64,000 bases of DNA from Treponema sp. (lineage in GTDB: Bacteria; Spirochaetota; Spirochaetia; Treponematales; Treponemataceae), in NCBI GenBank assembly GCA_016288205.1, contig JAEEYO010000067.1, positions 1 through 64,000 on the forward strand, written 5' to 3'. Positions 3,131 through 18,714 of this stretch are shown here, in pieces. Each line of letters starts with the position of its first letter. The first letter of the stretch is position 1. Both the position numbers and the translations under genes were made by a program. Under the pieces are notes generated by a model that saw only the letters and a program-made list of their open reading frames with translations, was not told the DNA's origin and made no database searches.

Positions 3131-3159
3131 TTGACAAAATACCACTTTCTAATTAAAAT
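3131..3159 (+). promoter_or_regulatory. promoter of the AT-rich glycan operon
   Basis: TTGACA (3131-3136), a 17-bp spacer and TAAAAT (3154-3159) form a near-consensus promoter. It lies about 30 bp ahead of the first gene of the ten-gene block, and no equally good promoter was noticed inside the block. The perfect -35 box suggests strong, possibly constitutive expression. Confidence 0.7.
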
Positions 3160-3188: not shown

Positions 3189-3953
3189 ATGAAAGTACTT
3201 CAATGCGGCTATGGAAATATCGGTAAAGTTTTATATAACGAATTCTCTTATTTAACTAAAGCGGTCAATGGTTCATTAGATGTATTTGATCCATTTGTAG
3301 ATGACTGTCCTAAAAAGATTACAAATTTAGATACAAAGTATGATATAACTTTTGTATGTGTACCAACAGATAAAAAAGATGATGGATCTGCAAATATAGA
3401 TTCAGTCCTTGAAGTTTGCGAACAAGTAAATTCTGAAATCATAGTTATAAAGTCTACAATTCCAGTCAATATTATTGACAAACTTCCAGAAAATGCTATT
3501 TATTCTCCAGAATTTACAGGAACCACGCCACATTCTTGTAAACAGGATTTTGTTATTTTAGGTGGTAGAAGAGAGTTTTGTAATAAAGTTGCTTCTCTTT
3601 ATAAACATGCTTACTCTGGTGATTTTCATATTCATTATACTGATATTAAAACAGCTATAATTGCAAAATATGCAGAAAATTGTTTTCTTGCAACAAAAGT
3701 CACCTTTTTTAATGAAATAGCCCAAGCCTGTAAAATAGCAGGTGTCGAATATGATGATGTAAGAAACCTTCTACTTGCAGATAGTCGTATAAATCCAAGC
3801 CATACATTTGTTTATGAAGAACAACCATATTATGATTCTCACTGTTTAAATAAAGATATTCCGGCTTTTATAGCACAGTTTGATTTACCGTTGATGAAAT
3901 CTATTTATCAGATAAATAATAATATGAAAAAATTTAAAGACAGGTGTAAATAA
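3189..3953 (+). CDS. short UDP-glucose/GDP-mannose dehydrogenase-like protein
   Basis: The 254-residue protein starts with a Rossmann NAD-binding fold (GYGNIG, residues 7-12), continues with TFVCVPTD and the IKSTIP segment, and ends with DSHCLNKD. That last motif matches the catalytic Cys-x-x-Lys-Asp of nucleotide-sugar 6-dehydrogenases (Cys219, Lys222, Asp223). Full family members are about 390-450 residues; here the C-terminal nucleotide-binding domain is absent, with no sign of a frameshift. It may oxidise a sugar not carried on UDP or GDP in the usual way, or work with a partner. It is the first gene of a co-directional, AT-rich, ten-gene operon, with two bases to the next gene. Confidence 0.8.
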   Translation: MKVLQCGYGNIGKVLYNEFSYLTKAVNGSLDVFDPFVDDCPKKITNLDTKYDITFVCVPTDKKDDGSANIDSVLEVCEQVNSEIIVIKSTIPVNIIDKLPENAIYSPEFTGTTPHSCKQDFVILGGRREFCNKVASLYKHAYSGDFHIHYTDIKTAIIAKYAENCFLATKVTFFNEIAQACKIAGVEYDDVRNLLLADSRINPSHTFVYEEQPYYDSHCLNKDIPAFIAQFDLPLMKSIYQINNNMKKFKDRCK

Positions 3954-3955
3954 GG

Positions 3956-4687
3956 ATGCTGTTAAAAATAGTTTGTGGTATTATTTATATATTAGTAATT
4001 TTTTTATTTCTTTTTGTTCTATTTATTATATCTAATAATACTAGCCCAGAAGAAGATATATATTCAAAGAAAATATTAAAAATATCTAATGGTATAATTA
4101 AAATTAATAAATATGCGTTTGAAAATTGGGGAGGTACAATAATTGAACTTCCTGATACAATTAAAAAGATTGATGACGGGGCTTTTCTTGGATGTGGTTC
4201 ATTACATTATATTAAATTGCCTAATGGACTGACTGAAATTGGTCGTCATTGTTTTGCTTCAGCAATTTCTTTGGAGTCAATAAGTATTCCTAAAACAGTC
4301 AACCATATAGGAGCATCTGCATTTGTAAAATGCAAATCTCTAAAGCATATAACAATTCCTGAAAATTTAATAGAAATTGAAGGATATGTGTTTGCAGATT
4401 GCATATCTTTAGAACACATAGAAATACCCAATAATATCAAAAAAATACATAGCTATGCATTTGAAAATTGTAAAAACTTGAATTATGTATTAATAAAAAA
4501 AGGAATTATTGAAATTGATGCAAATGCCTTTATTCCATGTCCTCAGCTTAAATATATCGATTATGAGGGAACTATAGAAGAATGGAAACAAATAAAGATT
4601 TCGTCATATGCTTTTGATGATGAAGTTGTTATCAAATGTACAGATGGTTTTGTAAAGCTAAATCATCAAGCATGGGGAAAAAAATGA
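3956..4687 (+). CDS. membrane-anchored BspA-like leucine-rich repeat protein
   Basis: A 243-residue protein with one strongly hydrophobic segment at residues about 4-26 that can anchor it in the inner membrane. It is followed by about seven LRR_5 (BspA/TpLRR type) repeats of roughly 23 residues, with the pattern I-x-x-I-x-x-x-A-F-x-x-C-x-x-L and segments such as IELPDTIKKIDDGAF. Such repeats are common in treponemes and mediate protein or host binding. Lying inside a glycosylation operon, it could be the acceptor that is glycosylated, or a scaffold for the enzymes; this is inference. Its stop overlaps the start of the next gene (ATGA). Confidence 0.8.
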   Translation: MLLKIVCGIIYILVIFLFLFVLFIISNNTSPEEDIYSKKILKISNGIIKINKYAFENWGGTIIELPDTIKKIDDGAFLGCGSLHYIKLPNGLTEIGRHCFASAISLESISIPKTVNHIGASAFVKCKSLKHITIPENLIEIEGYVFADCISLEHIEIPNNIKKIHSYAFENCKNLNYVLIKKGIIEIDANAFIPCPQLKYIDYEGTIEEWKQIKISSYAFDDEVVIKCTDGFVKLNHQAWGKK

Positions 4688-5889
4688 AAATAGGATTTAT
4701 AGCCGAAGGATATCCTCCAATGTCGGGAGGAGTTGCTACATCAGCACAACGAATAGCAAGAGAACTCGTAAAATTGAATTGTGAGGTTGTAATACTTACA
4801 TTTGAAAATACAGTTCCTATTACTTCAGAAGATGTTTGTTTTGAAGAAGTAGATGAAGGTGTAAAAGTATATAGAGTAGGTCCTTTCTTTTTAAAAAATG
4901 CAACGATGAAGACTACTGTTGAAATGTTAGATGAGAAATATAAAGCAGTGTTACGTAGACGTGCATTTAATCAAATGTTACATATTTTACAGAATGAAGA
5001 TGTTAATATAATACTTTCTTTTTATGTACTTAATTCTGGTTATTTAGCACAAATGTTAGCAAACGAATTGCATATGAAACATGTCGTTGGAATCAGAGGC
5101 AATGATATTGGTAGAAATGTTTTTCATGTTAATCGTTTTGCTGTTACAAAATGGGTTCTAGATGAATGTGATTCGATTATTACTGTTAATCATCATTTGA
5201 TGAATAGAACTTTAACAGTTTTCAAAGAAGTTAAAGATAAAATATGTTGTATCGAAAATGGTTTTTTATATAAAGACATTGAAAGCAATAATACATTAAA
5301 ACAACAGATAATAGAAAAAAATGGCTGGAGTGAAAATGATCCAATTATAACTTTTATTGGTTCTTTAAGAGAAAAGAAAGGTACTGTAATTCTTGCTAAA
5401 GCTTTAAGACAAATCGTAGAAAAGAATATTCCAGTTAGACTTATGGTCATCGGACCTGATATTTCCGGAGCAGAAAAAATGATTATCGGTCCATTATGGG
5501 AAGAATTAAAAGAAAAACATATTATTTATATTACTGGTCAAATTCCAAGAACTGAAGTATTACATTATGCTTCGATTGCTGATGTCGTTTGTATTCCTAG
5601 TTTAGATGATGGTATGGCAAACGGTTTGTTAGAGGGTATGTCAGTAGGTTTGTGTCCTATTACAACTACAATTATGAATGATGTTGTTACAGATAAAGAG
5701 AATGGTCGTGTAGTCAAAGCAGGAGATATTTCTGGACTTGCAGATACAATAGTTGATGTAATAAGCAATAAGGAAGAATTAAAGTTATATGGTGATTCTG
5801 CTAGAGAGACTATAATCCAAAAACATAATCCAAAATTGGAAGCGGAACGCTACATAAAAGTATTTGAGGATATACTAAAAAGAAAATGA
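4684..5889 (+). CDS. glycosyltransferase, GT4 family (first of two)
   Basis: The ATG at 4684 overlaps the preceding stop and opens the classic GT-B start MKIGFIAEGYPPMSGGVA; a longer in-frame reading from 4636 would lie within the LRR gene. The 401-residue protein has an acceptor-binding N-terminal half and a C-terminal glycosyltransferase group 1 domain with TFIGSLREKKGT and DDGMANGLLEGMSVG, where the E-x7-E nucleotide-sugar site of retaining GT4 enzymes would lie. It probably transfers a sugar from a nucleotide donor at the cytoplasmic face. It overlaps the aminotransferase gene by four bases, showing translational coupling. Donor and acceptor are unknown. Confidence 0.88.
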   Translation: MKIGFIAEGYPPMSGGVATSAQRIARELVKLNCEVVILTFENTVPITSEDVCFEEVDEGVKVYRVGPFFLKNATMKTTVEMLDEKYKAVLRRRAFNQMLHILQNEDVNIILSFYVLNSGYLAQMLANELHMKHVVGIRGNDIGRNVFHVNRFAVTKWVLDECDSIITVNHHLMNRTLTVFKEVKDKICCIENGFLYKDIESNNTLKQQIIEKNGWSENDPIITFIGSLREKKGTVILAKALRQIVEKNIPVRLMVIGPDISGAEKMIIGPLWEELKEKHIIYITGQIPRTEVLHYASIADVVCIPSLDDGMANGLLEGMSVGLCPITTTIMNDVVTDKENGRVVKAGDISGLADTIVDVISNKEELKLYGDSARETIIQKHNPKLEAERYIKVFEDILKRK

Positions 5890-6992
5890 AATCGATACCT
5901 CTATATAAACCATATATTCCATTTGCTCTTAAACATTCAATTGCTTTACCGCTTAAAACAGGGTGGTTAGGTTATGGACGTTATGCAAAACAAATAGAAA
6001 ACATGTTTACCAACAAATTTGGTGGTTTTGCAATTTCCACAAATAGTTGTACATCAGCTTTATATGTAGCAGCTAGACTTATATATTCTACTCCAAATGA
6101 TGAAGTTATTGTTCCTGCAATTACATTTGTAAGCACAGCAATGGCTTTCAAAACAGCCGGATTAAGAGTTGTGATAGCCGATGTTAATGAATCTGGAATA
6201 TTAGACGTTTCTTTAATTCATAAATATATTACAAAAAAAACTAAAGCAATTGTTATAGTTGACTTATATGGCCAAAAAGCTGAAATAAATAAACTTAAAA
6301 ATATTTGTATAGAAAAAAATATTACACTTATAGAAGATTGTGCACATCGAATTGGTTTTTATGATGCAGAAAAAATTGCTGATATATGTTGTTTTTCTTT
6401 CAATGTAATGAAAGAATTACCTTCCGGAGAAGGTGGTCTTATATGGTGCAAAAATACATCTCTAGAAAACAAAGCACGAAGTATCGCGAATGTTGGTCTA
6501 TGTGAAGATACAATAAAGAGAACATCGTCATTAATGCATCGCAATTACTTTTTTAGTAATACTCATGGCTTAAAACTATTACAAAACGATTTGGTAGCTT
6601 TTTATACAATAAATTTGTTCAAATCACGATACAAAAAAAACATATCTGCAAGAAAACAAATCTTTAATAAATATGATAAAGCTTTATTAAAAATTAATCA
6701 TATAACATTGCTATCTCGTTCAGAGCAAGATTCTTTTTTGATGTATGTAATTAAAATACCTGCTGAAATTCGTAATGATTTTAGAGAATACTTAGCAAAT
6801 AATAACATTTCTACAAGTATGCATTATCCCAATCTTGCCGATCATCCTCTTTTTTCAACAATAGAGTTATGTACAAATGCAAAAAAATTTTCTAATGAGA
6901 TAGTTACACTTCCTTGCTATCCAGCCTTAACTAAAAGGAATCAAGAGTACATCATTAAGAAAATTGAGGATTATTTTAATAATGAGAATTGA
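5886..6992 (+). CDS. DegT/DnrJ/EryC1/StrS-type sugar aminotransferase
   Basis: A 368-residue PLP enzyme. The segment SFNVMKELPSGEGG matches the cofactor-lysine motif of the family, placing the Schiff-base lysine at about residue 176. TNSCTSALYVAARL near residue 55 forms the phosphate-binding part, and EDCAHRIG supplies the PLP-contacting acidic residue. Family members transfer an amino group, usually from glutamate, to a keto-sugar nucleotide to make amino sugars. Together with the next gene, a GNAT-like protein, this suggests an N-acylated amino sugar. No 4,6-dehydratase is in the operon, so the keto substrate must come from elsewhere or from the dehydrogenase at the operon head. Confidence 0.88.
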   Translation: MKSIPLYKPYIPFALKHSIALPLKTGWLGYGRYAKQIENMFTNKFGGFAISTNSCTSALYVAARLIYSTPNDEVIVPAITFVSTAMAFKTAGLRVVIADVNESGILDVSLIHKYITKKTKAIVIVDLYGQKAEINKLKNICIEKNITLIEDCAHRIGFYDAEKIADICCFSFNVMKELPSGEGGLIWCKNTSLENKARSIANVGLCEDTIKRTSSLMHRNYFFSNTHGLKLLQNDLVAFYTINLFKSRYKKNISARKQIFNKYDKALLKINHITLLSRSEQDSFLMYVIKIPAEIRNDFREYLANNNISTSMHYPNLADHPLFSTIELCTNAKKFSNEIVTLPCYPALTKRNQEYIIKKIEDYFNNEN

Positions 6993-7548
6993 TTATAAGA
7001 ATATATATTTACATTCATTTCAAGAAGAAAATCTTGAGAGATGTTCTCAATCAAGAATAACTAACTCATATTTTTTCTTTTCTGAAGTCGAGAATATAAA
7101 ACAGTCATGTACTTGGATTACAAATCATATTAATAACATTCAAGATACTCTCCTTGAAATTCATTTAAAAGAAAATAATGCTTATATTGGTGCTATTGGT
7201 TATAAAATAGAAAATGGAAGATGTGAAGTAGGCCGTTTTACTCTAGATATTCCATATTTAAGAAAAAATATATCCTTATATCAATTAGCAAATCAATTCA
7301 GTCCAACAAAAGAAGCTTGTATTGCAATGCTTTCATATTTATATAACATAATAATAAGTCAAGAAGAAATCTTTGCGAGAGTTTTAGCTTCCAATAATTA
7401 TTCTAATTCACTATGCAGTTTTTTTTCTGATATTTGTGAGACAAAAACTATTAACTTAAATAATCAAAAATGTTATGAATACATAATAAATAAAGAGAAA
7501 TTTTTGGAAAAATATAATGAAGAAAAAGTGTTTATTTTATATTCATAA
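6982..7548 (+). CDS. GNAT-like N-acyltransferase (putative)
   Basis: The ATG at 6982 lies inside the end of the aminotransferase gene and gives 188 residues; an in-frame ATG at 6964 is less likely because GAGG stands about 12 bases before 6982. The middle shows the GNAT-like run AYIGAIGYKIENGRCEVGRF followed by the LASNNYSNSLCSFF segment that resembles the RimJ/RimL acetyl-CoA site. Similarity is weak and judged by eye. If correct, it would acylate the amino group placed by the preceding aminotransferase, possibly using the acyl carrier protein at the operon end as donor. It overlaps the next gene by 32 bases. Confidence 0.55.
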   Translation: MRIDYKNIYLHSFQEENLERCSQSRITNSYFFFSEVENIKQSCTWITNHINNIQDTLLEIHLKENNAYIGAIGYKIENGRCEVGRFTLDIPYLRKNISLYQLANQFSPTKEACIAMLSYLYNIIISQEEIFARVLASNNYSNSLCSFFSDICETKTINLNNQKCYEYIINKEKFLEKYNEEKVFILYS

Positions 7549-8557
7549 TTTTTTGGAAAGTAATCATTATGCAATAATGAGTTTCTTAGATTTTATGAAA
7601 GATTATGTTGATTTTACGATATGCGCAAAATATTTTTATGATAATCATAAAGCTATATTTGAAAAATTTTCCAATAAGATTCTTTTAAATGAACTTTCTG
7701 TCACTGAGGAGTTCTGGAAAGGTTTTGATATTGTTCATATAGTTTTCGATGGTTTACCATCTCTTAGTATTGTTGCACTTTCAAAGATTTTTGATATACC
7801 ATATATAATTACTTTTCATGGTGGTTATGATACAAATACAAAAATATATAATCCTGATATCTGTTCAAAACTAGCTTTTTTTGTTAATGGTGCAAAATAT
7901 GCTACCGTGGTTTGTAAAAAAGATAAAATAAAATTACAAGAATTACATTGCTTAAAAAATAAGTTACTAATTATTCCTCCCTCAATAGAGGAAAAGTATG
8001 TACAGATAAATCAAGATTCAGAACTAAATAATAATATTACTGTTGTCGGAAGGTTTATTCCTAAAAAAGGTATTGATATTGCTATAAAAGCTTTACAAGA
8101 ACTTCCAAATGATTATAAATTATATATTATAGGCGATGGGGATGAAAAAGAATATTTACAGGAATTAGCTTCAGATTTAATGCTAAATAAGAGAATTACA
8201 TGGCTTGGGGAGCAACCTTTAGAAACTACATTGGAAATAATTAAACAAAATTCTATTTTATGGCATCCAGCACGCAAAGATAAAAAAGGAAATGCAGAAG
8301 GAATTCCCCAAGTAATTTTATATGCCATGGCTATGGGTAAATTAATTATAACAACAAATACTGGGAGTATTAGTTCTGTAGTAAAAAATAAAAAAAATGG
8401 TATTTTTTTTAAAACAGATATTCCAGAATCATTATCAAAGCAAACTATCAAATATAACAATTTAAAAAGTAAGAAAATCAGAAATGAGGCACAAAATGAT
8501 AGTAAGCAGTTCTTTAAGCAAAATCAATTTAATATTTGGATAAACTTATACAATTAA
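7517..8557 (+). CDS. glycosyltransferase, GT4 family (second of two)
   Basis: The 346-residue protein has a GT-B layout. The N-terminal half ends near FHGGYDTN, and the C-terminal half contains VVGRFIPKKGIDIAIKAL, YIIGDGDEKE and WHPARKDKKGNAEGIPQVIL, as in group 1 glycosyltransferases. In the usual E-x7-E motif the second glutamate is replaced: EGIPQVILYAMAMG has Tyr where Glu is expected. This may change donor handling. The start lies within the previous gene, showing tight packing. It probably adds the second sugar of a short glycan; specificity cannot be read from sequence. Confidence 0.85.
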   Translation: MKKKCLFYIHNFLESNHYAIMSFLDFMKDYVDFTICAKYFYDNHKAIFEKFSNKILLNELSVTEEFWKGFDIVHIVFDGLPSLSIVALSKIFDIPYIITFHGGYDTNTKIYNPDICSKLAFFVNGAKYATVVCKKDKIKLQELHCLKNKLLIIPPSIEEKYVQINQDSELNNNITVVGRFIPKKGIDIAIKALQELPNDYKLYIIGDGDEKEYLQELASDLMLNKRITWLGEQPLETTLEIIKQNSILWHPARKDKKGNAEGIPQVILYAMAMGKLIITTNTGSISSVVKNKKNGIFFKTDIPESLSKQTIKYNNLKSKKIRNEAQNDSKQFFKQNQFNIWINLYN

Positions 8558-8571
8558 TTGGATGTAAAAAA

Positions 8572-9501
8572 ATGGCACTTTCTTTTGAAGAAATACAAAT
8601 CATTATCGCAAATGAAGAAACGCAAACGATATTTCAAGAAATAAAAAATAAATATGGAATAGAATTATCAATTCTAAATTTATTAACCTGGGGTGGACAA
8701 GGCCTAATATTTAAAACGCAAGATAGAATTACAAATGAGAATATTATAATAAAAATTCCGATTTATTCTCCAAACAAGAATAGAGCAATTATTGAACATA
8801 CTTTATTAAAGGAAATTCAAATATATGAATATACAACTAAAATTCATACAACTTGTGTTCCTTCATTAGTTACTTTTTCTGAAGAAGGGAAATACCTTAT
8901 TCATTCCTACATAGAAGGTGAAAATTTAAGAGAGTATATTAAAAAGCATTCAAATATCAGCAACAAACTTGTTCAGCTAGAATGGCAAATGGCAACGGAA
9001 CTATTTAATATATTTCATAACCATACTCCTTCATATATATTAAGAGATTTTAAGGAAAAGAATATTATCATTACAGCAAATAATAGTTTATTCTTTTTGG
9101 ATTTCGGAAGTGTCCGACAAGAGTTCTCAACTGCATCTTCAGTAAATAAAAAAAATAGATTGGGAACAAATGCTTTTCTACATTGGCCATTAGAACAGTT
9201 AGTTGATTTAAAACATGGTAATTCAAGAAAATCTGATTATTTTTCTTTTGGTGTCATGCTTTATTTTACATTATTTGGGACATATCCATTTACAAATAAT
9301 GAAGAAAACTATGAATGTGCTGTAGAAATTCGTAAAAACGAATATTATAAGGTTGTTGAACAACTAGAAAAATATTATTATAATAATGAGATGGAGGAGA
9401 TGGTTTTTCAGATTTTGATTAGTACTCTAAATCCAGAATCTGAAAGAAGACTTTTTATAGAATATGACGACAAATATTTTGGTAAGTCACTTAAAGAATA
9501 G
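8572..9501 (+). CDS. protein-kinase-like enzyme
   Basis: The ATG at 8572 is used; a TTG at 8536 would extend it into the preceding gene. The 309-residue protein has a complete eukaryotic-like kinase core: glycine loop WGGQG, ATP lysine Lys61 (IIIKIP), catalytic loop LRDFKEKN with Asp159 and Asn, Mg-binding DFG at Asp177, and an activation segment GTNAFLHWPLEQL before helix F (KSDYFSFGVML). The HRD histidine is Leu, as in some bacterial kinases. No membrane segment or sensor domain is present. It could phosphorylate a protein, or a sugar or lipid intermediate. The downstream histidine-phosphatase-like gene overlaps it by 38 bases, hinting at an opposing pair. Confidence 0.85.
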   Translation: MALSFEEIQIIIANEETQTIFQEIKNKYGIELSILNLLTWGGQGLIFKTQDRITNENIIIKIPIYSPNKNRAIIEHTLLKEIQIYEYTTKIHTTCVPSLVTFSEEGKYLIHSYIEGENLREYIKKHSNISNKLVQLEWQMATELFNIFHNHTPSYILRDFKEKNIIITANNSLFFLDFGSVRQEFSTASSVNKKNRLGTNAFLHWPLEQLVDLKHGNSRKSDYFSFGVMLYFTLFGTYPFTNNEENYECAVEIRKNEYYKVVEQLEKYYYNNEMEEMVFQILISTLNPESERRLFIEYDDKYFGKSLKE

Positions 9502-9928
9502 TTATGCTCTTGAAAAAAAGTATTGTGGTCAAATAGCTTGTTCCATTCTTTCTGGTCAACATATAGAAATCCCAATGGATGTTTCATACTTGTCAAAGAA
9601 GAATGTATTTACAATATATGGTTCATCATTAGTAAGATTTAGACAAACTACTGGATTACTAAATGAAAAAAAAATAGGAATCCTTGAGGGACATTCAAAG
9701 CTAGATTCTCAATTGAACCAAAATGAAATAAAAGAATATTGGAAAGATAAGTATGCAAAGCCTGAAGGAGGAGAAAGCTTAGCTGAAGCAAGAAAAAGAT
9801 TAACATTAGGTATGAACGAAATATTAGAAAGAAATGTTCACATAATTGTTATTATTACTCATCAGGGAATCCTGATATATAGATATTTTGGTTTTAATAA
9901 TTTAAAAAAATTATCACGGGCGAAGTAA
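9464..9928 (+). CDS. histidine-phosphatase-like protein with altered catalytic motif
   Basis: A 154-residue protein resembling the phosphoglycerate-mutase/histidine phosphatase fold: YGSSLVRFRQTTGLL matches the S-x-L-x-R-x-x-x-T strand-helix, GGES matches the acidic loop, and ITHQGIL holds the second histidine. The first motif, normally L-x-R-H-G, reads LVSHLKNS, so the phosphohistidine is kept but the preceding Arg is Ser and the Gly is Leu. Activity is therefore uncertain; it might be a pseudo-enzyme or have a changed substrate. It starts inside the kinase gene, so both are likely made in similar amounts. No other family fits better. Confidence 0.7.
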   Translation: MTTNILVSHLKNSYALEKKYCGQIACSILSGQHIEIPMDVSYLSKKNVFTIYGSSLVRFRQTTGLLNEKKIGILEGHSKLDSQLNQNEIKEYWKDKYAKPEGGESLAEARKRLTLGMNEILERNVHIIVIITHQGILIYRYFGFNNLKKLSRAK

Positions 9929-9940
9929 GGAGTATAGTTT

Positions 9941-11329
9941 ATGAATAAAAAAGAATATAAAAACTTCTTACATGCAGATTTTTCATCAGTGCTAAATTAT
10001 ATTGTTCATAATTATTCAGATAAAGTAGCTTTTAAATATTTTAGTGACGGAAATTGGATAAATAAAACTTATAATGATTTTTATAACGACGTTGCAAATA
10101 CATCTAATTCATTTAAAGAGTTATTTGGAGAGCGAAAAAAAATATATATAAAACAATTAAAATCATATAATTGGTTTGTTGTTTTCTTTTCTACTATTGT
10201 AAGTAATAATATTTCTGTAGTATTAAATCCCGAATTATCTGATGAAGAATTCCAAAAAGAAAATAATTTTTTAGATATAGATTATATTATTGATTCATTT
10301 GAATTTAATCAAATTCGAACGCAAAAAGAAAACATAGATAAAAACATTCCAAAAAACTGTTCAGTAATAATTAAGACATCAGGGACAACAGATTGGCCGA
10401 AATATGTTATGCTTTCGCAGAAGAATATTATTTGTTCTTTATTAAATGAAATAAGTAAGATAAATCTAAATTCTAACGGAAAATCATTAGCCGTACTTCC
10501 TCTTTGGCATTTATATGAACTGTGTCTTGAAATAATGTTTAATTTTATAACTTGTAATACAACTATTTTTAATGATGTAAAAGATAATTTTTTATTAAAT
10601 CTAAAAAGATTTAAACCAGATCATCTTTTTGTAGTCCCATCGCTAGTAAAATTACTATCTTTGATATATTCAAGTCCTAATCAGGATAATGAAGTTATAA
10701 AGGAGAACTTGAAAATTATTTTTTGTGGAAGTGCCTCACTTTCAAATGATTTGGTCTTATTTTTTCAGAATCAAGGAGTTATTTTAGTTCAAGGATACGG
10801 GGCTACAGAATGTTCCCCGCTTGTAACAGTTCAAGAATTAACAAATATTGTTGTAGGAACAGTTGGAAAAGAAGGAATTTGTAACAAAATACGCATAAAA
10901 AATGGTGAGATTCAAGTAAAAGGTAAGAATGTTATGCTTGGATATTACAAAAATAAAGAAGCAACAAGAGCTGTGTTTGAAGGAAAATGGTACAAGACTG
11001 GTGACCTTGGTCTATTTGATAAAAACAAAAATCTTATTATTCATGGAAGAAAGAATAGTCTGATAGTGTTAAGTAATGGTGAAAAATTCTATCCTGAGGA
11101 AGTAGAGGAAGTTATACTGCATAATCCAAAAATTGATTATTGTAAGATAATATTTAGAGGGCAAAAAATTTATGCGGAAATATTTTCTAATTCATTATCA
11201 AAGTCGGAATTATTAGATTACATAAAAGTTGTGAATTCAAACTTGATTTTACATAAAAGAATTTCTGAAACAAAAATTTTAGACTCACAACCTCAAAAAA
11301 CAGATTTAGGAAAAACTTATAGGAAATAA
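9941..11329 (+). CDS. AMP-forming acyl/aminoacyl ligase (ANL family)
   Basis: A 462-residue adenylating enzyme with the core motifs in order: KTSGTTDWPK (residues about 146-154, the ATP P-loop, with Asp replacing the usual Gly), GYGATECSPL, KTGDLG and HGRKNSLIVLSNGEKFYPEEVEE, and a C-terminal LGKTYRK holding the catalytic lysine. The family activates a carboxylic acid as acyl-AMP and passes it to CoA or a carrier protein. The gene directly downstream, two bases away, encodes an acyl carrier protein, so loading of that carrier is the natural reading. The acid is not predictable. The AT-rich codon use matches the rest of the operon. Confidence 0.9.
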   Translation: MNKKEYKNFLHADFSSVLNYIVHNYSDKVAFKYFSDGNWINKTYNDFYNDVANTSNSFKELFGERKKIYIKQLKSYNWFVVFFSTIVSNNISVVLNPELSDEEFQKENNFLDIDYIIDSFEFNQIRTQKENIDKNIPKNCSVIIKTSGTTDWPKYVMLSQKNIICSLLNEISKINLNSNGKSLAVLPLWHLYELCLEIMFNFITCNTTIFNDVKDNFLLNLKRFKPDHLFVVPSLVKLLSLIYSSPNQDNEVIKENLKIIFCGSASLSNDLVLFFQNQGVILVQGYGATECSPLVTVQELTNIVVGTVGKEGICNKIRIKNGEIQVKGKNVMLGYYKNKEATRAVFEGKWYKTGDLGLFDKNKNLIIHGRKNSLIVLSNGEKFYPEEVEEVILHNPKIDYCKIIFRGQKIYAEIFSNSLSKSELLDYIKVVNSNLILHKRISETKILDSQPQKTDLGKTYRK

Positions 11330-11331
11330 TA

Positions 11332-11562
11332 ATGAATAATTGGATAGAAAAAATTGATGCCTTTTTGATATCTGAACTTAAAACAGAAATAGAAGTAATT
11401 AAAAATGCAACATCTTTTACCGAGCTTGGAATAGATTCTTTCGGGATTATTTATTTAGTTCAAAATATTGAATCCCTATTAAATATTCAAATCAAAGATG
11501 AGGATTTGTTCAAAATCAGCAATTATGATGAATTGCTGAATTACGTGGATAGTGTACAATAA
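11332..11562 (+). CDS. acyl carrier protein
   Basis: A 76-residue acidic four-helix protein. ELGIDSFGI carries the phosphopantetheine serine (Ser36) in a DSF version of the usual DSL motif. It follows the AMP-forming ligase by two bases and is the last gene of the AT-rich operon, so it probably carries the acyl or aminoacyl group that the ligase activates. In Pseudomonas syringae flagellin glycosylation, ACP-type proteins help make an acylated viosamine (from memory), which gives a precedent for this gene set. No phosphopantetheinyl transferase lies nearby. Confidence 0.9.
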   Translation: MNNWIEKIDAFLISELKTEIEVIKNATSFTELGIDSFGIIYLVQNIESLLNIQIKDEDLFKISNYDELLNYVDSVQ

Positions 11563-11590
11563 TGGTCAGTTATTTAATAATAGCAGGCAG

Positions 11591-11673
11591 GCACGGATTT
11601 AAATCTTTTATGGGGGACTCTAAAACAGCAAAAATCAAGTAATCCCCCGCAAAATCCGCATTGTGCTTTTTTT
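11591..11673 (+). terminator. long imperfect hairpin with T-run ending the AT-rich operon
   Basis: GCACGGATT (11591-11599) pairs with AATCCG and GTGC (11653-11666), and an inner GGGGGA (11612) pairs with TCCCCC (11643). Seven T follow at once. The loop is longer than in a simple terminator, so it may also be a small structured RNA. It separates the operon from the next gene, and base composition changes here. Confidence 0.5.
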
Positions 11674-11735
11674 GATTTTCATATTATAATGAAAAAATCG
11701 TGCCGTTGTCGGATTCAAAAAAGGAGGAAATCAAC

Positions 11736-13499
11736 ATGGGGCATTACAAGAATTTTAAGTCGGTCATTTATTGTCCGGTGCACTGGGTGGTGAACGTCAA
11801 GGAAGAGGAGCTTGAGGAGCAGCTTGCCTTTTACGAGCGATACGTCGGGGTGGACAAAGTTTACGTCGAGCCATACCGCTCTGGAGAACTTGCGAGCAGG
11901 GAAAAACTCCTGCTTCTGAAATCATTTTTTGAAAAGCACGGGATTGAGGTCGCCGGTGGATTTACGACCACATCAAAATGGGGAGACATTCCGGGAAAGG
12001 AATACAAGAGCCAGAGACTCTTTGACACATACTGCTACACCGACAAGGATTTCCGCGCGGAGATTCAGAAGAACATTGAGTTTACGGCGAGCATCTTTGA
12101 TGAAATAATTTTGGACGATTATTATTTTACGAACTGCACTTGCGAAGACTGCATCAAGGCGAAGGGAGACCGAACATGGCAGGAGTACAGGCTTGCTTTG
12201 ATGAAGGACGTGAGCGAGAACGTGATTGTGGGTCCCGCGAAAAAGGTGAACCCGAAGTGCAAGGTCGTAATCAAGTACCCGAACTGGATGGAAAGCTATG
12301 CCGAGGCAGGTTACAATCCCGGCGAGCAGCGGGATATTTTTGACGGAGTTTACACTGGAACCGAGACACGCAACATAATGGATCAGGACCAGAATCTTCC
12401 GCGATACCTTTCCTATTCTCTTGTCCGGTGGATGGAAAATCTTGCGCCGGGAAGAAATGGGGGCGGATGGTTTGACGCTTATCAGTGCTATCCCATGGAG
12501 GATTATCTGGAGCAGGCTTATCTTACGGCATTTGCGCGTGCCCGTGAGCTGATGATTTTCTGCTGGCCCTTGGTTTACGACCATTATTTTGTTCCGACGC
12601 TTGGATTCCAAATGCAAAAAATCGACGCGCTTATGTCTCAGGTTGGAGAGTGCGTGGGTGTGGCCGAGTATCATCCTGTGAACGCCCAGGGTGAGGATCA
12701 TCTTGCGGACTATCTGGGATTGCAGGGAATTCCCTTTGAGCCGACACCTGAGTTTCCGGAAAAAGAGAAGACCATTTTCTTTACGGCGGCTTCCACAGCG
12801 GATCCGTGCGTCATGGAAAAATTGGAGAGCTATGTGCGTAACGGCGGACATGCAATCGTCACAAGCGGATTCGTCAAGCTGATGCTCGGAAAAGGAATTG
12901 AGCAGATGACTTCAATCCGCTACAGGGACCGGCACCTCACGGCGACGCATTATCAGGTTCAGGCGAACGACTCATGGGAGCAATACAAGATTCCCGCAAT
13001 CAGTCCGATCACATTCCCGCTGATGGAGCACCGCAACAACACGAGCTGGATGCTTTTGAAGGGAATGACGAGCGAAAAGAATTTCCCCATACTGATTCGT
13101 GACTGCTATGGAAAGGGACAGATGGTAACTCTTGTCGTCCCGGATAATTTCAGCGACATACAGAATCTGCCAAGGGATGTCCTCAGCGCAATCAGGCAGG
13201 AATTCGCGACGAATCTGGATGTCTATCTTGAGTGCGCGAAAAACGTGGGGCTTTTCCTTTACGACAACGGAAGCTTCATCACCTACGCCTATGAGTATAT
13301 GAACGAGGGTGCCCAGCCGTGCTATGTCCATGTGAAGGGTGGAGCGAAAAAACTCGTGTGCCTGAACCGCAAGTTCCGCAATGAGGTCGAGCCGTTCAAG
13401 CAGATCCCTGAGAACAAATGGACCCACGCGCCGTCCGAGACAGTCTTCAAGATTGAGACTCACCCGGATATGTTCGAGTTCTGGAAAGTGGAGCGATGA
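11736..13499 (+). CDS. putative glycoside-hydrolase-like TIM-barrel protein
   Basis: The ATG at 11736 is preceded by AAGGAGG at the right spacing; a GTG at 11700 is rejected. The 587-residue product has no signal peptide. The first 350 residues look like an (alpha/beta)8 barrel, with EIILDDYYFTNCTCEDC resembling the acidic strand end followed by a Cys pair seen in uncharacterised glycosidase-like proteins. The rest resembles a glutamine-amidotransferase-like or beta-galactosidase trimerisation-like domain (VRNGGHAIVTSGF) plus a beta-rich tail. Family and substrate are not established; cytoplasmic breakdown of imported oligosaccharides is a guess. The last codons (VER-stop) lie within a purine-rich repeat that recurs at another gene end. 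Confidence 0.6.
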   Translation: MGHYKNFKSVIYCPVHWVVNVKEEELEEQLAFYERYVGVDKVYVEPYRSGELASREKLLLLKSFFEKHGIEVAGGFTTTSKWGDIPGKEYKSQRLFDTYCYTDKDFRAEIQKNIEFTASIFDEIILDDYYFTNCTCEDCIKAKGDRTWQEYRLALMKDVSENVIVGPAKKVNPKCKVVIKYPNWMESYAEAGYNPGEQRDIFDGVYTGTETRNIMDQDQNLPRYLSYSLVRWMENLAPGRNGGGWFDAYQCYPMEDYLEQAYLTAFARARELMIFCWPLVYDHYFVPTLGFQMQKIDALMSQVGECVGVAEYHPVNAQGEDHLADYLGLQGIPFEPTPEFPEKEKTIFFTAASTADPCVMEKLESYVRNGGHAIVTSGFVKLMLGKGIEQMTSIRYRDRHLTATHYQVQANDSWEQYKIPAISPITFPLMEHRNNTSWMLLKGMTSEKNFPILIRDCYGKGQMVTLVVPDNFSDIQNLPRDVLSAIRQEFATNLDVYLECAKNVGLFLYDNGSFITYAYEYMNEGAQPCYVHVKGGAKKLVCLNRKFRNEVEPFKQIPENKWTHAPSETVFKIETHPDMFEFWKVER

Positions 13500-13533
13500 G
13501 AGTTGAAAACTGAAAGATGAAAGTGGAAAGCTG
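13482..13533 (+). repeat. purine-rich repeat overlapping a gene 3' end
   Basis: The stretch contains GTGGAGCGATGA, which supplies Val-Glu-Arg and the stop codon of the preceding gene, followed by AAGTGGAAAGCTG-type units. The same motif family appears on the minus strand at 53742-53671, also supplying Val-Glu-Arg-stop to an unrelated gene. Confidence 0.6.
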
Positions 13534-13551
13534 GGGGAATTTCCTTCCCCC
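13533..13551. other. GC-rich hairpin between convergent genes
   Basis: GGGGGAA (13533-13539) pairs with TTCCCCC (13545-13551) around a five-base loop. It lies between two convergent genes and may stop transcription, but the plus-strand T-run comes about 15 bases later, so it is not a classic intrinsic terminator. Confidence 0.4.
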
Positions 13552-13575
13552 GGTACCGATGGAATTTTTTTGATT

Positions 13576-13983
13576 CTAGTCCTTCATCTTTAGTTTTTCG
13601 TGCATTTCTTCAAGCGGGAGTTTTGCACCCTTGAAATCCGGGACTCCGCGAATGCCGTCATTTTCCTTTCTCGGGATTATGTGGACATGGAAATGGAATA
13701 CGGACTGATGCGCACATTCGTTCGTACAGTTGAAGAGATTCACGCCGCCGTATCCGCAGTCGTTGATGTAATGCGCGCTGATTTTTTGAACGCTTTCCAT
13801 AACGTGCGTCATGGTCTCGGGATCACATTCAAGCATGCTCCGCACGTGTTTTTTCGGAATGACCAGAGTGTGTCCGTCCACATCCTTCGCAATGTCCAAA
13901 AATGCATAGGTATACTCATCCTCATAAATCTTAAAGCTGGGAATCTCTCCCTTGATGATTTTACAGAAAATACAGTCGTCCAT
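13576..13983 (-). CDS. HIT family protein (histidine triad nucleotide hydrolase)
   Basis: A 135-residue protein with the histidine triad HFHVHIIP (His97, His99, His101), whose middle His is the nucleophile in nucleotide phosphoramidate and dinucleotide hydrolysis. The N-terminus CIFCKIIKGEIPS has the C-x-x-C half of a common zinc site. The length fits the HINT/HIT branch. It is a soluble housekeeping enzyme, probably acting on AMP-lysine or similar adducts. GGAG stands ahead of the ATG. It lies downstream of and in the same direction as the orphan solute-binding protein, 50 bases apart, but a functional link is unlikely. Confidence 0.92.
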   Translation of the reverse strand: MDDCIFCKIIKGEIPSFKIYEDEYTYAFLDIAKDVDGHTLVIPKKHVRSMLECDPETMTHVMESVQKISAHYINDCGYGGVNLFNCTNECAHQSVFHFHVHIIPRKENDGIRGVPDFKGAKLPLEEMHEKLKMKD

Positions 13984-14033
13984 TTTTTGCTCCGTGTTTT
14001 TTTGATTTGTACCAATATATCTAAACTTGGAAT

Positions 14034-15701
14034 TTATAATCCCATTGTATTATAAACCCACTCCTTGAAATAAGTAAGAGCTTCGGCCTTGGTCTTTTCG
14101 CCCAGCTGATAAGCGGTTACAGCCTCTGTCCAAAGAGCCTCAATCTGCAGGTCGGTACCTTGAGTAAGAGAGCCGTCAACACCCTTTGCCATTTCGCAGA
14201 ACTGTGCGTAGTGGTTTTGTCCAGCAAGGAAGGGTTCTGAGAAATTCTTTTTAATTTTCTTCTGAACGTTGATGTTGCTTACTACGTATCCAGAGTCTTT
14301 GGCCATTGCCTCAAGAAATTTGTCATCTGTTGCAATATATCTGATCAGCTCCTTTGCGGCCTTGGGGTTCTTTGTTCCTTTGTATGCGCCAATCCAAGTT
14401 CCACCCCAGCGATAAGGAGCGGGTCCTGCACACATTGCCCAATCACCAGATGTTCTGGGGGCATTTGTCTTAAGGACATAGTGAAGTCCCCAGGGCGGAA
14501 GGAAGTAGCACATAACCTCAATGTCGGCACCAGTCTCGTCCCTCAAAGTTCCGTTCATACCGGCAAACCAACTCTCTGACCACTGGCTGACACCGCTAAC
14601 GGCAAGTTTTTCATCCTCAAAAATCTTGCACACCTCCATGTATTTCTCCATTGCTGGATCAATAACAAGTCTGTCGTTTACGACCCAGGGCTGCTTGCGG
14701 GCACCCTTGTACGGCATAAAGAGGTCTCCGGTTGTAGAAACAATTCTGCATTTTCCTCGTGATAATTTTTTTAGCTCGCGCGCCGTGGCAAGGAATGTGT
14801 CAAGATCGGAAAGTTTTTTCTGCACTTCCACAGGATCATCTGTTCCCCAGTATTTTTTTGCAAGGCTTCTGTGATAAAACACTGCGCCGGGTTCCACATC
14901 CCATGACATCGCATATACATGACCGTTGTAGCTGCCGACTTTCATTGGGTAATCATTCATTTTGTCCTTGACTTCCGCATAGAGATCATCAAGTTCTAGA
15001 AGGTATCCGGACTCAACGTATTTGCGTACAAAGGCATCCTCAAGACCGAATACATCCGGAGCTCCGATTCCAGATGCAAGAACAGGATCCAGTTTGCTTG
15101 GAAACTGATCTGTGGGTGTGAATGAGTATTTCAATTCTATATCAGGATGAGTTGCTTTGTAGCCATATTTTTCCTTGTTAAGGAATCCTTTGATTTCATC
15201 TGTGAAAGACCAGACCGAAAGTTCTTGGGAAGCTGTCAATTCGCTTATTGCATCCGAAGTGGACATACCTTGAAATATTGTTTTGTTGGTATTGTAAGCT
15301 GTCTGTGTAATAAAATACCGTATGCGTACAAAACCGAAATCGCCATAGAAATCTAACTCTTCCTTTGTTGTCGGTGCGAATGCCTTGAATTTTTTTAATA
15401 TCTCTTGATAAATGTTCTTGGATTCATACTGAGCCCTTGAATTAACGGATTTGACAAGAACCTTGCTTTCAAAAGCAATTTCCTTTACCTTTTGAAACTC
15501 AGAGGAATCATACAATAGAACATTTACCTCTGCTTTCATTGAATCGGTGAAAATTGCAGTTCGTATGTTACTCTCGCTGCTAAAGTAAAAACCCACAGTT
15601 TCTTGCCCAAGCTTTTCCTCAAAAACTGTATTGTTTTTTTTGGGGGCGGCATACAGGCTAAAGCTGCACAGTAAACATAAAATAAAAAATAATCGTTTCA
15701 T
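14034..15701 (-). CDS. ABC transporter solute-binding protein with N-terminal extension
   Basis: The ATG giving MKRLFFILCLLCSFSLYA, a clean signal peptide, is chosen; a GTG 15 bases earlier overlaps the AGGAG itself. The AGGAG-to-ATG spacing of about 14 is long. Residues from about 150 onward match family 1 sugar-binding proteins (SGIGAPDVFGLEDAFVRKY, WDVEPGAVFYHRSLAKKYW, PYRWGGTWIGAYKGTKNP). The first 150 mature residues are extra and unassigned. No lipobox is visible, so it should be periplasmic. No permease is adjacent, so it is an orphan that may share the ABC system at 18.7-23 kb or one elsewhere. The promoter carries a perfect palindrome. Confidence 0.82.
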   Translation of the reverse strand: MKRLFFILCLLCSFSLYAAPKKNNTVFEEKLGQETVGFYFSSESNIRTAIFTDSMKAEVNVLLYDSSEFQKVKEIAFESKVLVKSVNSRAQYESKNIYQEILKKFKAFAPTTKEELDFYGDFGFVRIRYFITQTAYNTNKTIFQGMSTSDAISELTASQELSVWSFTDEIKGFLNKEKYGYKATHPDIELKYSFTPTDQFPSKLDPVLASGIGAPDVFGLEDAFVRKYVESGYLLELDDLYAEVKDKMNDYPMKVGSYNGHVYAMSWDVEPGAVFYHRSLAKKYWGTDDPVEVQKKLSDLDTFLATARELKKLSRGKCRIVSTTGDLFMPYKGARKQPWVVNDRLVIDPAMEKYMEVCKIFEDEKLAVSGVSQWSESWFAGMNGTLRDETGADIEVMCYFLPPWGLHYVLKTNAPRTSGDWAMCAGPAPYRWGGTWIGAYKGTKNPKAAKELIRYIATDDKFLEAMAKDSGYVVSNINVQKKIKKNFSEPFLAGQNHYAQFCEMAKGVDGSLTQGTDLQIEALWTEAVTAYQLGEKTKAEALTYFKEWVYNTMGL

Positions 15702-15719
15702 AGGCTTTTGATGCACTCC

Positions 15720-15757
15720 TTAATCTATAGATTAACACTGGTACACGCTTTTGTCTA
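15720..15757 (-). promoter_or_regulatory. promoter with 16-bp palindromic operator candidate
   Basis: On the minus strand TAGACA (15757-15752), a 17-bp spacer and TAATCT (15734-15729) form a promoter for the solute-binding protein gene. The perfect palindrome TTAATCTATAGATTAA (15735-15720) covers the -10 box and the likely start site, just before the AGGAG. A dimeric repressor bound there would block initiation. The -35 box overlaps the last bases of the upstream gene. Confidence 0.55.
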
Positions 15758-16261
15758 GGCTCTTGCGCATGCGGAAATCAGCTTGCCGATGAGACGGAAA
15801 ATCACGTCCCGGATCAGATGGCGGATTATGAACACGAGTGCGACTCCGAGACATGCGCCTTGTATGGACTTCAGGATAAAATAACCCGCTGCGGCTCCTA
15901 TGGGGAGAAAAAGCAGGCCTGTCCTGAATGTGAGCATTTGCAAAAGCAACTGGATTAAAAAGGCACCTAAGCTGATTGCGGTTGTGATGTAAAGCACTTT
16001 GTCCCAATGCAGGAAATACGCCGCGACCGAGACAAGGGAAATTGCAATGTAAAAAATGTAGCTTAGATGCATGAGGGTCATGAACGCATTTCCTATGGCC
16101 TCTTCCGTTTTCTCTGTTTCCGCCGACACATTTTCCGCTGGATTCCGGCTGTCTTTGTCCACCTTTGAACCACACTCCGGGCAGACAAGATTGTCCAAAT
16201 CTTTCATGCTCTTTATGGCAAAATCAAATTCTTTCTGACAGTTCGTGCAATATCTTTTCAT
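15755..16261 (-). CDS. zinc-ribbon membrane protein, unknown function
   Basis: The 168-residue protein begins with a zinc ribbon (C-x-x-C at residues 5-8, CPEC near residue 28) on the cytoplasmic side. An acidic linker and three or four hydrophobic segments (residues about 60-85, 88-108, 112-130, 135-150) follow. Such small ribbon-plus-membrane proteins are widespread and uncharacterised. It is transcribed toward the solute-binding protein gene, which has its own promoter. No function can be assigned. Confidence 0.7.
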   Translation of the reverse strand: MKRYCTNCQKEFDFAIKSMKDLDNLVCPECGSKVDKDSRNPAENVSAETEKTEEAIGNAFMTLMHLSYIFYIAISLVSVAAYFLHWDKVLYITTAISLGAFLIQLLLQMLTFRTGLLFLPIGAAAGYFILKSIQGACLGVALVFIIRHLIRDVIFRLIGKLISACARA

Positions 16262-16390
16262 TTTTATCCGTCAACTCCTGCCCCATTATATCACAAGATG
16301 TCTGTAGAAAAAAAGATGTTAAATGTGTAAAATGAAAAAAAAGTAAAATAGAGCCAAGGTAAAAAAGGAACAAAAAAAACAGGAGGAAAA

Positions 16391-16840
16391 ATGAATAAAA
16401 AAACAATCGTTGGTGTTATGCTGATTTTATGTGCAAGCTTAGTTTTTTCTGCCGGTTTGAAGAAAGGCAAAGCCAGTCCCGGAACAAAAAAAACTGAAGA
16501 TGGGCATTGGAATGTTGCTCTCATAAAGGCTTCTTTGCAGGAATGGAATCCTGGACCATTCAATCTTCCTGATGAAACGCTGAGTAATCTTTCCGAACTT
16601 GCTGAAAAGGGAGACGGAAAAGCATGCCGTCAGCTTGCAAGATATTTCTATTGCAATGGGCAGATTGATGAATATATTGATTTTATAAAAAAGGGCTGTG
16701 TCCTTCTTTATACGAAATCCTTGACAACCGTAGAAATCAGATTCCTCGCATCGATGATGAAAAGTTGCGTTACCGCGCGCAACTTAAGCAACTCGCTGAA
16801 AGTGAAAATGCTCAGACATGCTGGGATATACTCAACATAA
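16391..16840 (+). CDS. small secreted protein, possible SEL1/TPR-like
   Basis: A 149-residue protein with a strong AGGAGG site and a signal peptide (MNKKTIVGVMLILCASLVFSA). The mature part is helical, and LSELAEKGDGKACRQLARYF resembles one SEL1-like repeat, a protein-interaction unit. The end is abrupt (HAGIYST), so a longer ancestral protein with more repeats is possible. It precedes a small membrane protein gene by 22 bases. Function unknown. Confidence 0.6.
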   Translation: MNKKTIVGVMLILCASLVFSAGLKKGKASPGTKKTEDGHWNVALIKASLQEWNPGPFNLPDETLSNLSELAEKGDGKACRQLARYFYCNGQIDEYIDFIKKGCVLLYTKSLTTVEIRFLASMMKSCVTARNLSNSLKVKMLRHAGIYST

Positions 16841-16862
16841 ACGATAGAAAAAGAGGAAACGA

Positions 16863-17141
16863 ATGAATTTATTAAAAAGGATAGGGTGCGTTCTGGATGC
16901 CGTTGCTTTTACATCATTTATTATTCATTTCATAATAACTAAGTCTTTTCCGAAACTTATTATACTGTATTTTTTTCTCTTGTTTGTTGGCACTTCAATG
17001 CAGATTCCAGCGCAGTATAGGGAATTGAAATCCAATGAAGATGTGGGTGCGTTGGATATAAAAATATTTTGGGGACTTATTGTAGGCAGCATTGGTTTTC
17101 TTGGATTGACTATTTTTTTTATAAAAGACTTTTATTTTTGA
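16863..17141 (+). CDS. small three-segment membrane protein (92 aa)
   Basis: GAGGAAACGA precedes the ATG. The product is almost wholly hydrophobic, with segments at about 10-30, 32-50 and 66-88. The loop after the second segment, QIPAQYRELKSNEDVGALDI, recalls the turn of PQ-loop/SemiSWEET proteins, but the Pro-Gln pair is inverted, so that family is only a possibility. It lies next to the secreted helical protein and may be co-transcribed. Unknown function. Confidence 0.5.
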   Translation: MNLLKRIGCVLDAVAFTSFIIHFIITKSFPKLIILYFFLLFVGTSMQIPAQYRELKSNEDVGALDIKIFWGLIVGSIGFLGLTIFFIKDFYF

Positions 17142-17362
17142 AGGGTCATTCTCATAGTTTTACCCCACATCTAGCGTCCTACGCATGCCGGAATCCAAAC
17201 CCTCTTGGCCCCACAGATCTCCATTCATGTGACTAAGACATTTCCTCAAATTTTTTCCAATTTTTTAAAAATTTTTTGTCAATTTGATTACCGTGGCGAA
17301 GATTCGCGGCTATTATATTATATGAAGGGATTTTTCTGAATCGCTGTTGATTTATAAAATCC

Positions 17363-17391
17363 TTCACATTTCAAAAGAAATGCATTATAAT
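17363..17391 (+). promoter_or_regulatory. promoter of the Rpn-like gene
   Basis: TTCACA (17363-17368), 17 bp, then a perfect TATAAT (17386-17391), followed by AAGGAG. It falls in the 271-bp gap after the small membrane protein. The rest of that gap is AT-rich with poly-T tracts and shows nothing else I can name. Confidence 0.6.
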
Positions 17392-17412
17392 ATAAAGGAG
17401 CGATTGAGGCTT

Positions 17413-18378
17413 ATGGCGGAGAAAGACATTCCCGGCGGCGGGAACCGCAGGATAAAGGACAGCATGTTCGTAGACCTCTTCGGAAAGGACATAAACGCAA
17501 AGGAGAACTTCCTTTCGCTTTACAATGCCCTGCACGGAACGGACCTGAGGCTGGAGGACACTAAGCTTGAGCCCGAGATGATTGACGGGGCGGTGTACAT
17601 GAGCTATGCGAACGACGTCGCCATGATGGTGAACGGACAGGTCGTGGTTCTGATAGAGCACCAGTCCACGATAAACCAGAACATGCCGCTTCGTCTTTTG
17701 GATTATGTTACGCGGATTTACGAGAGGATAATTCCCGCGAGGAAAAAGTACTATCGGAGCCGAATCCAGATTCCGATGCCCGAGTTCTACGTGCTCTACA
17801 ACGGAACGGACGACTTTCCCGCCGAGGAGGTTATGAGGCTCTCCGACGCATATATCCGTCCCGAGGGGAGAGAGCCTGATGATGCGACTCTGGAGCTCGT
17901 GGTGAGGGTGTACAACATAAACGTGGGAAAGGGGGATGCCCTGCTTGAGAAATGTGTTGCGCTGAGGCAGTACTCACAGTTCATCGCGTTGCTCAGGGAG
18001 GCCCACAGGACAGGGAAGATGGATCCGCTTAGCTGGGCAGTGCGTGAGGCCGTCAGGAAGGGGATCCTGCCTGAGTATTTGGAAAGGAAATCTACGGAGG
18101 TGTTCAATATGTTTTTGATGGAATATGACTACAAGGATGACATTGCCTCGCAGAGAGAGGAGTCCCTTGAGGAAGGGATCAGAATAGGAGAGAAACGGGG
18201 CTTGGAGGAGGGGCTTAAAAAAGGGCGTTTGACTGGTCTGGAAGAGGGGCTTGAGAAAGGGCGCTTGGAATCCATGCGGCTCATGATGCAAAAACTGAAC
18301 ATGCCGCTTCCCCAGGTCATGGAGACCTTAAATATTCCACCTGAGAAGCGGGGCAAGTATGCCTCGCTGCTGTCATAG
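17413..18378 (+). CDS. Rpn family recombination-promoting nuclease / putative transposase
   Basis: The ATG at 17413 gives 321 residues beginning MAEKDIPGGGNRRIKDSMF. The block ANDVAMMVNGQVVVLIEHQS matches the PD-(D/E)XK nuclease core of the Rpn (formerly transposase_31) family, which contains the E. coli RpnA-D DNA endonucleases. The C-terminal third is built of degenerate units of the type GLEEGLEKGRL (residues about 255-290), the low-complexity helix usual in this family. These genes are multi-copy in many gut bacteria and linked to phage defence or recombination. No terminal inverted repeats were seen around it. Confidence 0.85.
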   Translation: MAEKDIPGGGNRRIKDSMFVDLFGKDINAKENFLSLYNALHGTDLRLEDTKLEPEMIDGAVYMSYANDVAMMVNGQVVVLIEHQSTINQNMPLRLLDYVTRIYERIIPARKKYYRSRIQIPMPEFYVLYNGTDDFPAEEVMRLSDAYIRPEGREPDDATLELVVRVYNINVGKGDALLEKCVALRQYSQFIALLREAHRTGKMDPLSWAVREAVRKGILPEYLERKSTEVFNMFLMEYDYKDDIASQREESLEEGIRIGEKRGLEEGLKKGRLTGLEEGLEKGRLESMRLMMQKLNMPLPQVMETLNIPPEKRGKYASLLS

Positions 18379-18714
18379 GACGTTCGGCATGATGAATCCT
18401 TTTGTGTGGAAATCAGGAAAATAAAAATGAAAAAGAAATTATATATTATCTTATTATTGATTGTCTCTATTCTCAAAGTCCACGGACAGCGTGACTGACT
18501 GTAACAAAGGTCAAAACGCGCGATGAAAAAACTTAGAAAATTAAATTCGTTGGCATTGAAAATTACAGGTGGAAATTTTCTTTCCAAAAAATCATAGTAA
18601 ACAGCTACAAAATTTGTGGTTTTAATTAAGTCAAAATAAGTTGATAATGGACTCAGTTAATTAGGATGAAAGACGGCTTTGTCCCTTTCCCTTTTTTAAG
18701 TGAGGAGTCAAAAA
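18379..18714 (+). other. intergenic stretch with a signal-peptide-like remnant
   Basis: This 336-bp gap holds one short reading frame at 18427-18498. It encodes a 23-residue peptide with a basic N-terminus, a hydrophobic core and HGQRD before the stop, which looks like an isolated signal peptide. It could be the 5' stump of a lost secreted-protein gene or chance. No RNA gene or clear terminator is visible. The purine-rich AGGAG at 18703 belongs to the next gene. Confidence 0.35.

Follow-up and report, generated by a model that had tools for sequence, protein, structure and literature searches.

In butirosin-type aminoglycoside pathways, an acyl side chain carried on an acyl carrier protein (ACP) is placed on an amino sugar, and in the ntdABC operon (kanosamine/neotrehalosadiamine) a DegT-family aminotransferase is combined with a phosphatase acting on a sugar. 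Phosphorylation of pathway compounds also occurs in sugar antibiotic pathways. Here, an operon at positions 3189-11562 of a 64,000-nucleotide stretch of Treponema sp. DNA (the whole stretch analysed, referred to as the window) was compared with these systems and with a homologous operon in a Clostridia genome (G797).

The locus shares with butirosin-type pathways an AMP-ligase, a discrete ACP, a DegT aminotransferase and glycosyltransferases. However, the window and Clostridia operons themselves contain no 2-deoxy-scyllo-inosose (cyclitol) synthase and the window operon no deacetylase, whereas the window set has a Hanks-type kinase, a predicted GNAT-GT4 coupling and a ligase of the acyl/aryl type. 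The DegT-family aminotransferase and the phosphatase are also found in ntdABC, but the Gfo/Idh/MocA dehydrogenase of that operon is absent from both operons, and the two GT4 glycosyltransferases, the kinase, the ligase and the ACP of the window are additional. A further cluster, on the Kitasatospora plasmid NZ_CP107965 (L037), was reached independently via its short dehydrogenase (29%). It likewise encodes a short dehydrogenase, a DegT-like aminotransferase, an AMP-ligase, an ACP, a phosphotransferase, a HAD phosphatase and a glycosyltransferase, but has in addition a deacetylase, Gfo/Idh, asparagine synthase, NUDIX and GT2 genes. Its ligase, ACP and kinase show no detectable relationship to their window counterparts and the DegT match is weak. 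Since most of its proteins lack such a relationship, this cluster is a parallel in logic and not a relative.

The hallmarks of O-antigen and capsule loci (flippase, polymerase or ABC exporter, initiating transferase) could not be identified among the ORFs of either operon locus, in line with the earlier note, which had remarked on the missing polymerase and flippase. A multi-term search of the open-access literature retrieved no paper describing the gene set, which is weak evidence of absence, and the module is apparently undescribed.

Layout and composition of the ten-gene operon

The region 3189-11562 is occupied by ten ORFs on the + strand, listed here after a candidate promoter-like site 5' of them:

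3131..3159, + strand: candidate promoter-like site TTGACA-17-TAAAAT from a consensus scan, 11 of 12 consensus matches, ~30 nt 5' of g1
3189..3953, + strand: g1, two-domain (short) nucleotide-sugar dehydrogenase (PF00984, 2.2e-15; without PF03720)
3956..4687, + strand: g2, BspA-type LRR protein with N-terminal membrane anchor (PF13306, 3.2e-47)
4684..5889, + strand: g3, GT4-A glycosyltransferase (ORF opens at 4636; assigned by Pfam; 48% identity, E 1.7e-137 to the Clostridia GT4-A)
5886..6992, + strand: g4, DegT/DnrJ/EryC1 PLP aminotransferase, catalytic Lys intact (PF01041, 1.5e-63)
6964..7548, + strand: g5, GNAT-type acyltransferase (likely start 6982; by homology to the GNAT half of the Clostridia fusion)
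7517..8557, + strand: g6, GT4-B glycosyltransferase (38%, E 2.7e-78 to the GT4 half of the Clostridia fusion)
8572..9501, + strand: g7, protein-kinase-fold kinase (ORF opens with TTG at 8536; PF00069, 1.7e-22)
9464..9928, + strand: g8, short histidine-phosphatase-like protein (PF00300, 3.9e-8)
9941..11329, + strand: g9, acyl-AMP ligase of the acyl-CoA-ligase branch (PF00501, 1.3e-36; 33%, E 1.7e-82 to the Clostridia ligase)
11332..11562, + strand: g10, acyl carrier protein, phosphopantetheine Ser in GIDSF (PF00550, 8.5e-10)

Comparison with the Clostridia homologues placed the start of GT4-A probably at ATG 4684, which gives a 4-base overlap with the LRR stop, and that of the kinase probably at ATG 8572 instead of TTG 8536. 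With these refined starts, no gap between neighbouring genes exceeds 14 bases and overlaps amount to a few tens of bases, and the earlier description of ten co-directional, closely packed genes was borne out. The gene families named at that stage were recovered as well: Pfam assigned nine of the ten genes (UDPG_MGDP_dh, LRR_5, GT4, DegT, GT4, Pkinase, His_Phos_1, AMP-binding and PP-binding), and the GNAT protein, which has no Pfam match, was recognized by homology.

The GC content of the ten genes ranges from 0.236 to 0.310 (24-31%), compared to a mean of 0.469 (SD 0.028, minimum 0.415) for 31 flank ORFs. GC3 is 0.14-0.25 (about 0.17) versus 0.556 in flank genes, and the distance in synonymous codon use from the flank genes is 0.41-0.45 for all ten genes, with a flank maximum of 0.19. 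A GC shift is located near both ends of the operon. All three measures deviate, and therefore one foreign composition is common to all ten genes; the AT-richness that had been judged by eye is thus real, and no gene of the operon has the normal GC content or codon use of its flanks. Because the deviation is strong in GC, GC3 and codon use alike, the operon was most likely acquired horizontally, from an AT-rich source. It is flanked in the window by solute-binding, HIT and transposase-like genes. No tRNA was found within the window and no direct repeat framing the island was present among the repeat families shown. Promoter-like sites are no more numerous in the region than in shuffled sequence. 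A YhgA-like Transposase_31 protein is encoded at 17347-18378, 6 kb 3' of the island.

The homologous operon in a Clostridia genome

A kinase search of 344 genomes of one Clostridia order yielded one match, at E 1.9e-48. It belongs to an unrelated gut-type bacterium. The genus of the window accounts for much of the sample of its phylum, as suits a small phylum and not that of the Clostridia, and the two operons are probably in different phyla. The kinase gene lies in a seven-gene operon on contig 13 at about 93.5-100.8 kb, with the following genes (positions in locus L124):

11552-12793: DegT aminotransferase
12797-14005: GT4-A
14012-15607: GNAT-GT4-B fusion
15604-16503: kinase
16503-17987: AMP-ligase
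17977-18219: ACP
18212-18766: histidine phosphatase

Both operons contain the DegT, GT4-A, GNAT, GT4-B, kinase, AMP-ligase, ACP and histidine phosphatase families, and in both the GT4-B gene is directly followed by the kinase gene and the ligase gene by the ACP gene. In contrast to the window, GNAT and GT4-B of the Clostridia operon are on one polypeptide, DegT comes first and the phosphatase, with an intact RHG motif, last; the short dehydrogenase and the LRR protein are missing, and the GC content is just mildly below that of its own flanks. Therefore, eight of the ten families are shared and the two others are accessory. The suggestion that these genes might travel together thus holds for eight families in one operon, and they are not confined to unrelated contexts. 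GT4-A, GNAT, GT4-B, kinase, ligase and ACP are probably orthologues, the ACP mostly by position (weak pairwise match, 1.5e-4), and DegT and the phosphatase are common to both operons at the family level. The Clostridia operon is flanked by what, judged from sequence, are riboflavin genes, and its surroundings held no further obvious partner gene and no obvious acceptor gene. By hydropathy, no membrane segment could be identified in any protein of the shared core of either operon.

The kinases are 37% identical (E 2e-52). The window kinase keeps the G-loop, the Lys, RDxKxxN and DFG, and has an APE-like segment GT...LHWPLEQ (WPLEQ variant); the HRD His is replaced by Leu or Ile in both copies (Leu in the window). 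Apart from this His and the APE variant, the motif set is that of a Hanks-type kinase, and among solved structures PknB-like protein kinases come closest. An AlphaFold model of this kinase, built from a two-sequence alignment, had a pLDDT of 35 and was left out of the evidence. The phosphatase-like protein of the window reads SHL at the RHG position, so that the Arg and Gly are lost, and gave no significant pairwise match to the Clostridia phosphatase. The altered motif suggests that the window phosphatase is dispensable there or has another role.

The ligases contain LP(L/F)(W/F)H (LPLWH in the window copy), GYG.TE, TGDL and the Lys of a terminal LGK..R, and LPxxH, A5, A7 and A10 of the acyl/aryl-CoA-ligase branch are all present; the A3 loop of the window copy is unusual (TSGTTDWPK). 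Of the enzymes with solved structures, feruloyl/4-coumarate and o-succinylbenzoate CoA ligases are closest. Together with LPxxH, these relatives point to an aryl or fatty acid as the likely substrate and not to an alpha-amino acid. The earlier note had proposed that an acyl or aminoacyl group on the ACP decorates an amino sugar. The presence of an acyl carrier module beside an amino-sugar-type acyltransferase is supported, while the aminoacyl form of the proposal is weakened by the features of the ligase.

The DegT proteins are 26% identical (1e-34), a likeness at the family level. For both, the best solved match is TlmJ, a natural-product aminotransferase. The dTDP-glucose (RmlB) and GDP-mannose (Gmd) 4,6-dehydratases are encoded elsewhere in both host genomes, above curated cut-offs, and could therefore provide 4-keto substrates for DegT. 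The GNAT protein of the window is 29% identical (E 2.6e-18) to the GNAT half of the fusion, which scores as Acetyltransf_3. The EX7E motif reads DX7E in GT4-A, and the second Glu is absent from both copies of GT4-B (Tyr in the window, Asn in the homologue).

The short dehydrogenase of the window (254 aa) consists of the PF03721 and PF00984 regions only, lacks the C-terminal UDP-binding domain (PF03720) and keeps the catalytic Cys motif SHCLNKD. By alignment it is akin to short forms on IMG/VR (phage) contigs and the Kitasatospora plasmid; no further match was found at 1e-25 among 296 genomes of the phylum. As a guide to related operons it was rejected, since the dehydrogenases among the matches listed were at most 35% identical and came without multi-gene likeness. 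The hydropathy maximum of the LRR protein is 3.29 at residue 7, and given this N-terminal anchor it is probably extracytoplasmic.

Proposed pathway and alternative readings

The reading preferred here, at somewhat less than even confidence, is that of a horizontally acquired, self-contained operon making a cytosolic N-acylated amino-glycoside. DegT would aminate a 4-keto nucleotide sugar formed by the dehydratase of the host (RmlB or Gmd), and the AMP-ligase would activate a non-amino carboxylic acid and load it on the ACP. GNAT would then move the acyl group to the amino sugar, and GT4-A and GT4-B would assemble a short glycoside. In the simplest version, GT4-B would transfer the N-acylated amino sugar either afterwards or in the same step. 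GNAT and GT4-B would work as one unit; indeed, their occurrence on one polypeptide in the Clostridia genome suggests that acylation and transfer are coupled. The target of the kinase would be the sugar, the product or a protein of the pathway, and the phosphatase of the homologue could take the phosphate off. A further oxidation, of an additional sugar or an intermediate, may be carried out in the window by the short dehydrogenase. We infer every substrate, the order of the steps and a soluble or small, non-polymeric product. Such a product is favoured over a polymer because both genomes have the operon in a standalone position and without a core membrane protein, initiating transferase, flippase or polymerase.

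The homologous operon, the foreign codon use, the soluble core, the standalone loci, the 4,6-dehydratases, the TlmJ match and the Kitasatospora parallel all argue for the amino-glycoside. Against it, no exporter, regulator or self-resistance gene is recognizable, just two members are known, DegT matches at the family level and the phosphatases are not detectably orthologous. Moreover, a Hanks-type kinase is unusual as a small-molecule kinase, the A3 loop of the window ligase is altered and the use of acyl-ACP by GNAT is predicted.

The kinase and phosphatase may serve in pathway phosphorylation, product protection or regulation, and their role is the least settled part of the mechanism. Phosphorylation as a control step, as originally proposed, is weakened because the window phosphatase lacks the RHG Arg and Gly, whereas the kinase motifs are intact save the HRD His. 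An unlikely extension of the amino-glycoside reading is a new class of natural-product operon, spread between distant bacteria, in which the kinase phosphorylates a sugar product or intermediate of an ACP-fed, GNAT-GT4-coupled acyl-glycoside pathway and the histidine phosphatase later removes the phosphate, following a protecting-group logic.

Sets of DegT, GNAT and GT4 genes are usual in surface glycan loci, and it is possible, though doubtful, that a surface structure (lipid-linked or cell-wall glycan) receives an acylated amino-sugar side chain or a short glycan from this operon, with the initiating transferase and export of the host encoded elsewhere. Teichuronic-acid and LPS enzymes are indeed among the GT4 profile matches, which are all far below cut-off, and the short dehydrogenase could supply a uronic acid. 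However, neither copy has an acyl-lipid gene or any of the initiating, flipping, polymerizing or membrane components mentioned above, and both operons are apart from recognizable polysaccharide loci.

Soluble core enzymes and a protein-kinase fold, which suits a protein substrate, would also fit cytoplasmic protein glycosylation. In this case a protein (flagellin, an adhesin or the LRR protein) would directly receive an acylated sugar assembled by the two GT4 enzymes, and the kinase and phosphatase would adjust the process. In the window, the probable start of GT4-A lies within the LRR gene, whose product had been proposed earlier as an acceptor, but this gene is absent from the homologous operon, which leaves the acceptor idea unsupported. 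The probable extracytoplasmic location of the LRR protein and the lack of an obvious acceptor gene near the Clostridia operon also argue against protein glycosylation, which is considered decidedly unlikely.

That a regulatory or defence-type kinase lies by chance within a glycan operon, next to an unrelated or decayed phosphatase, would agree with the best PADLOC matches of the kinase (PD-T4-6 kinase models, 1.2e-23) and with the short g8 without RHG, but is very improbable, as the kinase gene is directly 3' of GT4-B in both operons, other defence partners are absent, and the PADLOC match reflects the kinase domain only, with no match for the other cluster proteins tested.

What began as an odd list of genes is now a defined module that recurs, and its fused GNAT-glycosyltransferase allows the hand-over between individual enzymes to be predicted. 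Should a small acylated amino-glycoside turn out to be the product, it would represent a new type of compound from bacteria whose natural products have been little explored, and an example of a Hanks-type kinase that may take part in a sugar pathway.

Distribution beyond the two operons

The module is real but rare within the genomes searched. No third member of the operon was found in further Clostridia samples of 299 (family), 196 (class) and 79 (genus, searched with GT4-A) genomes, which partly overlap. In 148 relatives, the window kinase matched general kinases only, at about 31% identity or less and with partial coverage. Virus contigs gave no match to GT4-A, ligase or fusion and one weak match to the kinase, and plasmid searches returned general family members only.

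The AMP-ligase has no other close relative in 200 genomes of its own genus, and a single-protein scan of named genomes gave no match. The sole other same-genus match at 1e-35 (G416, 35%) belongs to an AT-rich polyketide cluster of the ketosynthase type and was rejected as a homologous operon. This AT-rich island (L023, contig 9, 69-14029) is apparently an acquired polyketide cluster; its genes, named from sequence, encode a radical-SAM-like protein, a peptidase-domain ABC exporter, an HlyD-like protein, a ketosynthase-ketoreductase-ACP enzyme, a MATE-like exporter and the AMP-ligase. A Prevotella ligase (L087) was also set aside, since by its sequence and surroundings it is an ordinary fatty-acid-type ligase, at a distance from the dehydrogenase. 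In another genome (G516, contig 248; L118, 1066-2868), an AMP-ligase 34% identical to that of the window is apparently fused to an ACP domain and adjoins a radical-SAM-like protein and an AgrB-like membrane protein.

No ketosynthase, the hallmark of aryl polyene and PKS clusters, was matched among the ten proteins of the operon. A second ACP/ligase set of this genome, of native composition, is located at 33252-36331 of the window, where two tandem ACPs, an AMP-ligase, an ApeI-like dehydratase and a GT2 resemble part of an aryl polyene cluster. Adjoining genes 3' of this set (37338-41175) encode a Gfo/Idh/MocA oxidoreductase, a polysaccharide deacetylase and a CotH kinase protein.
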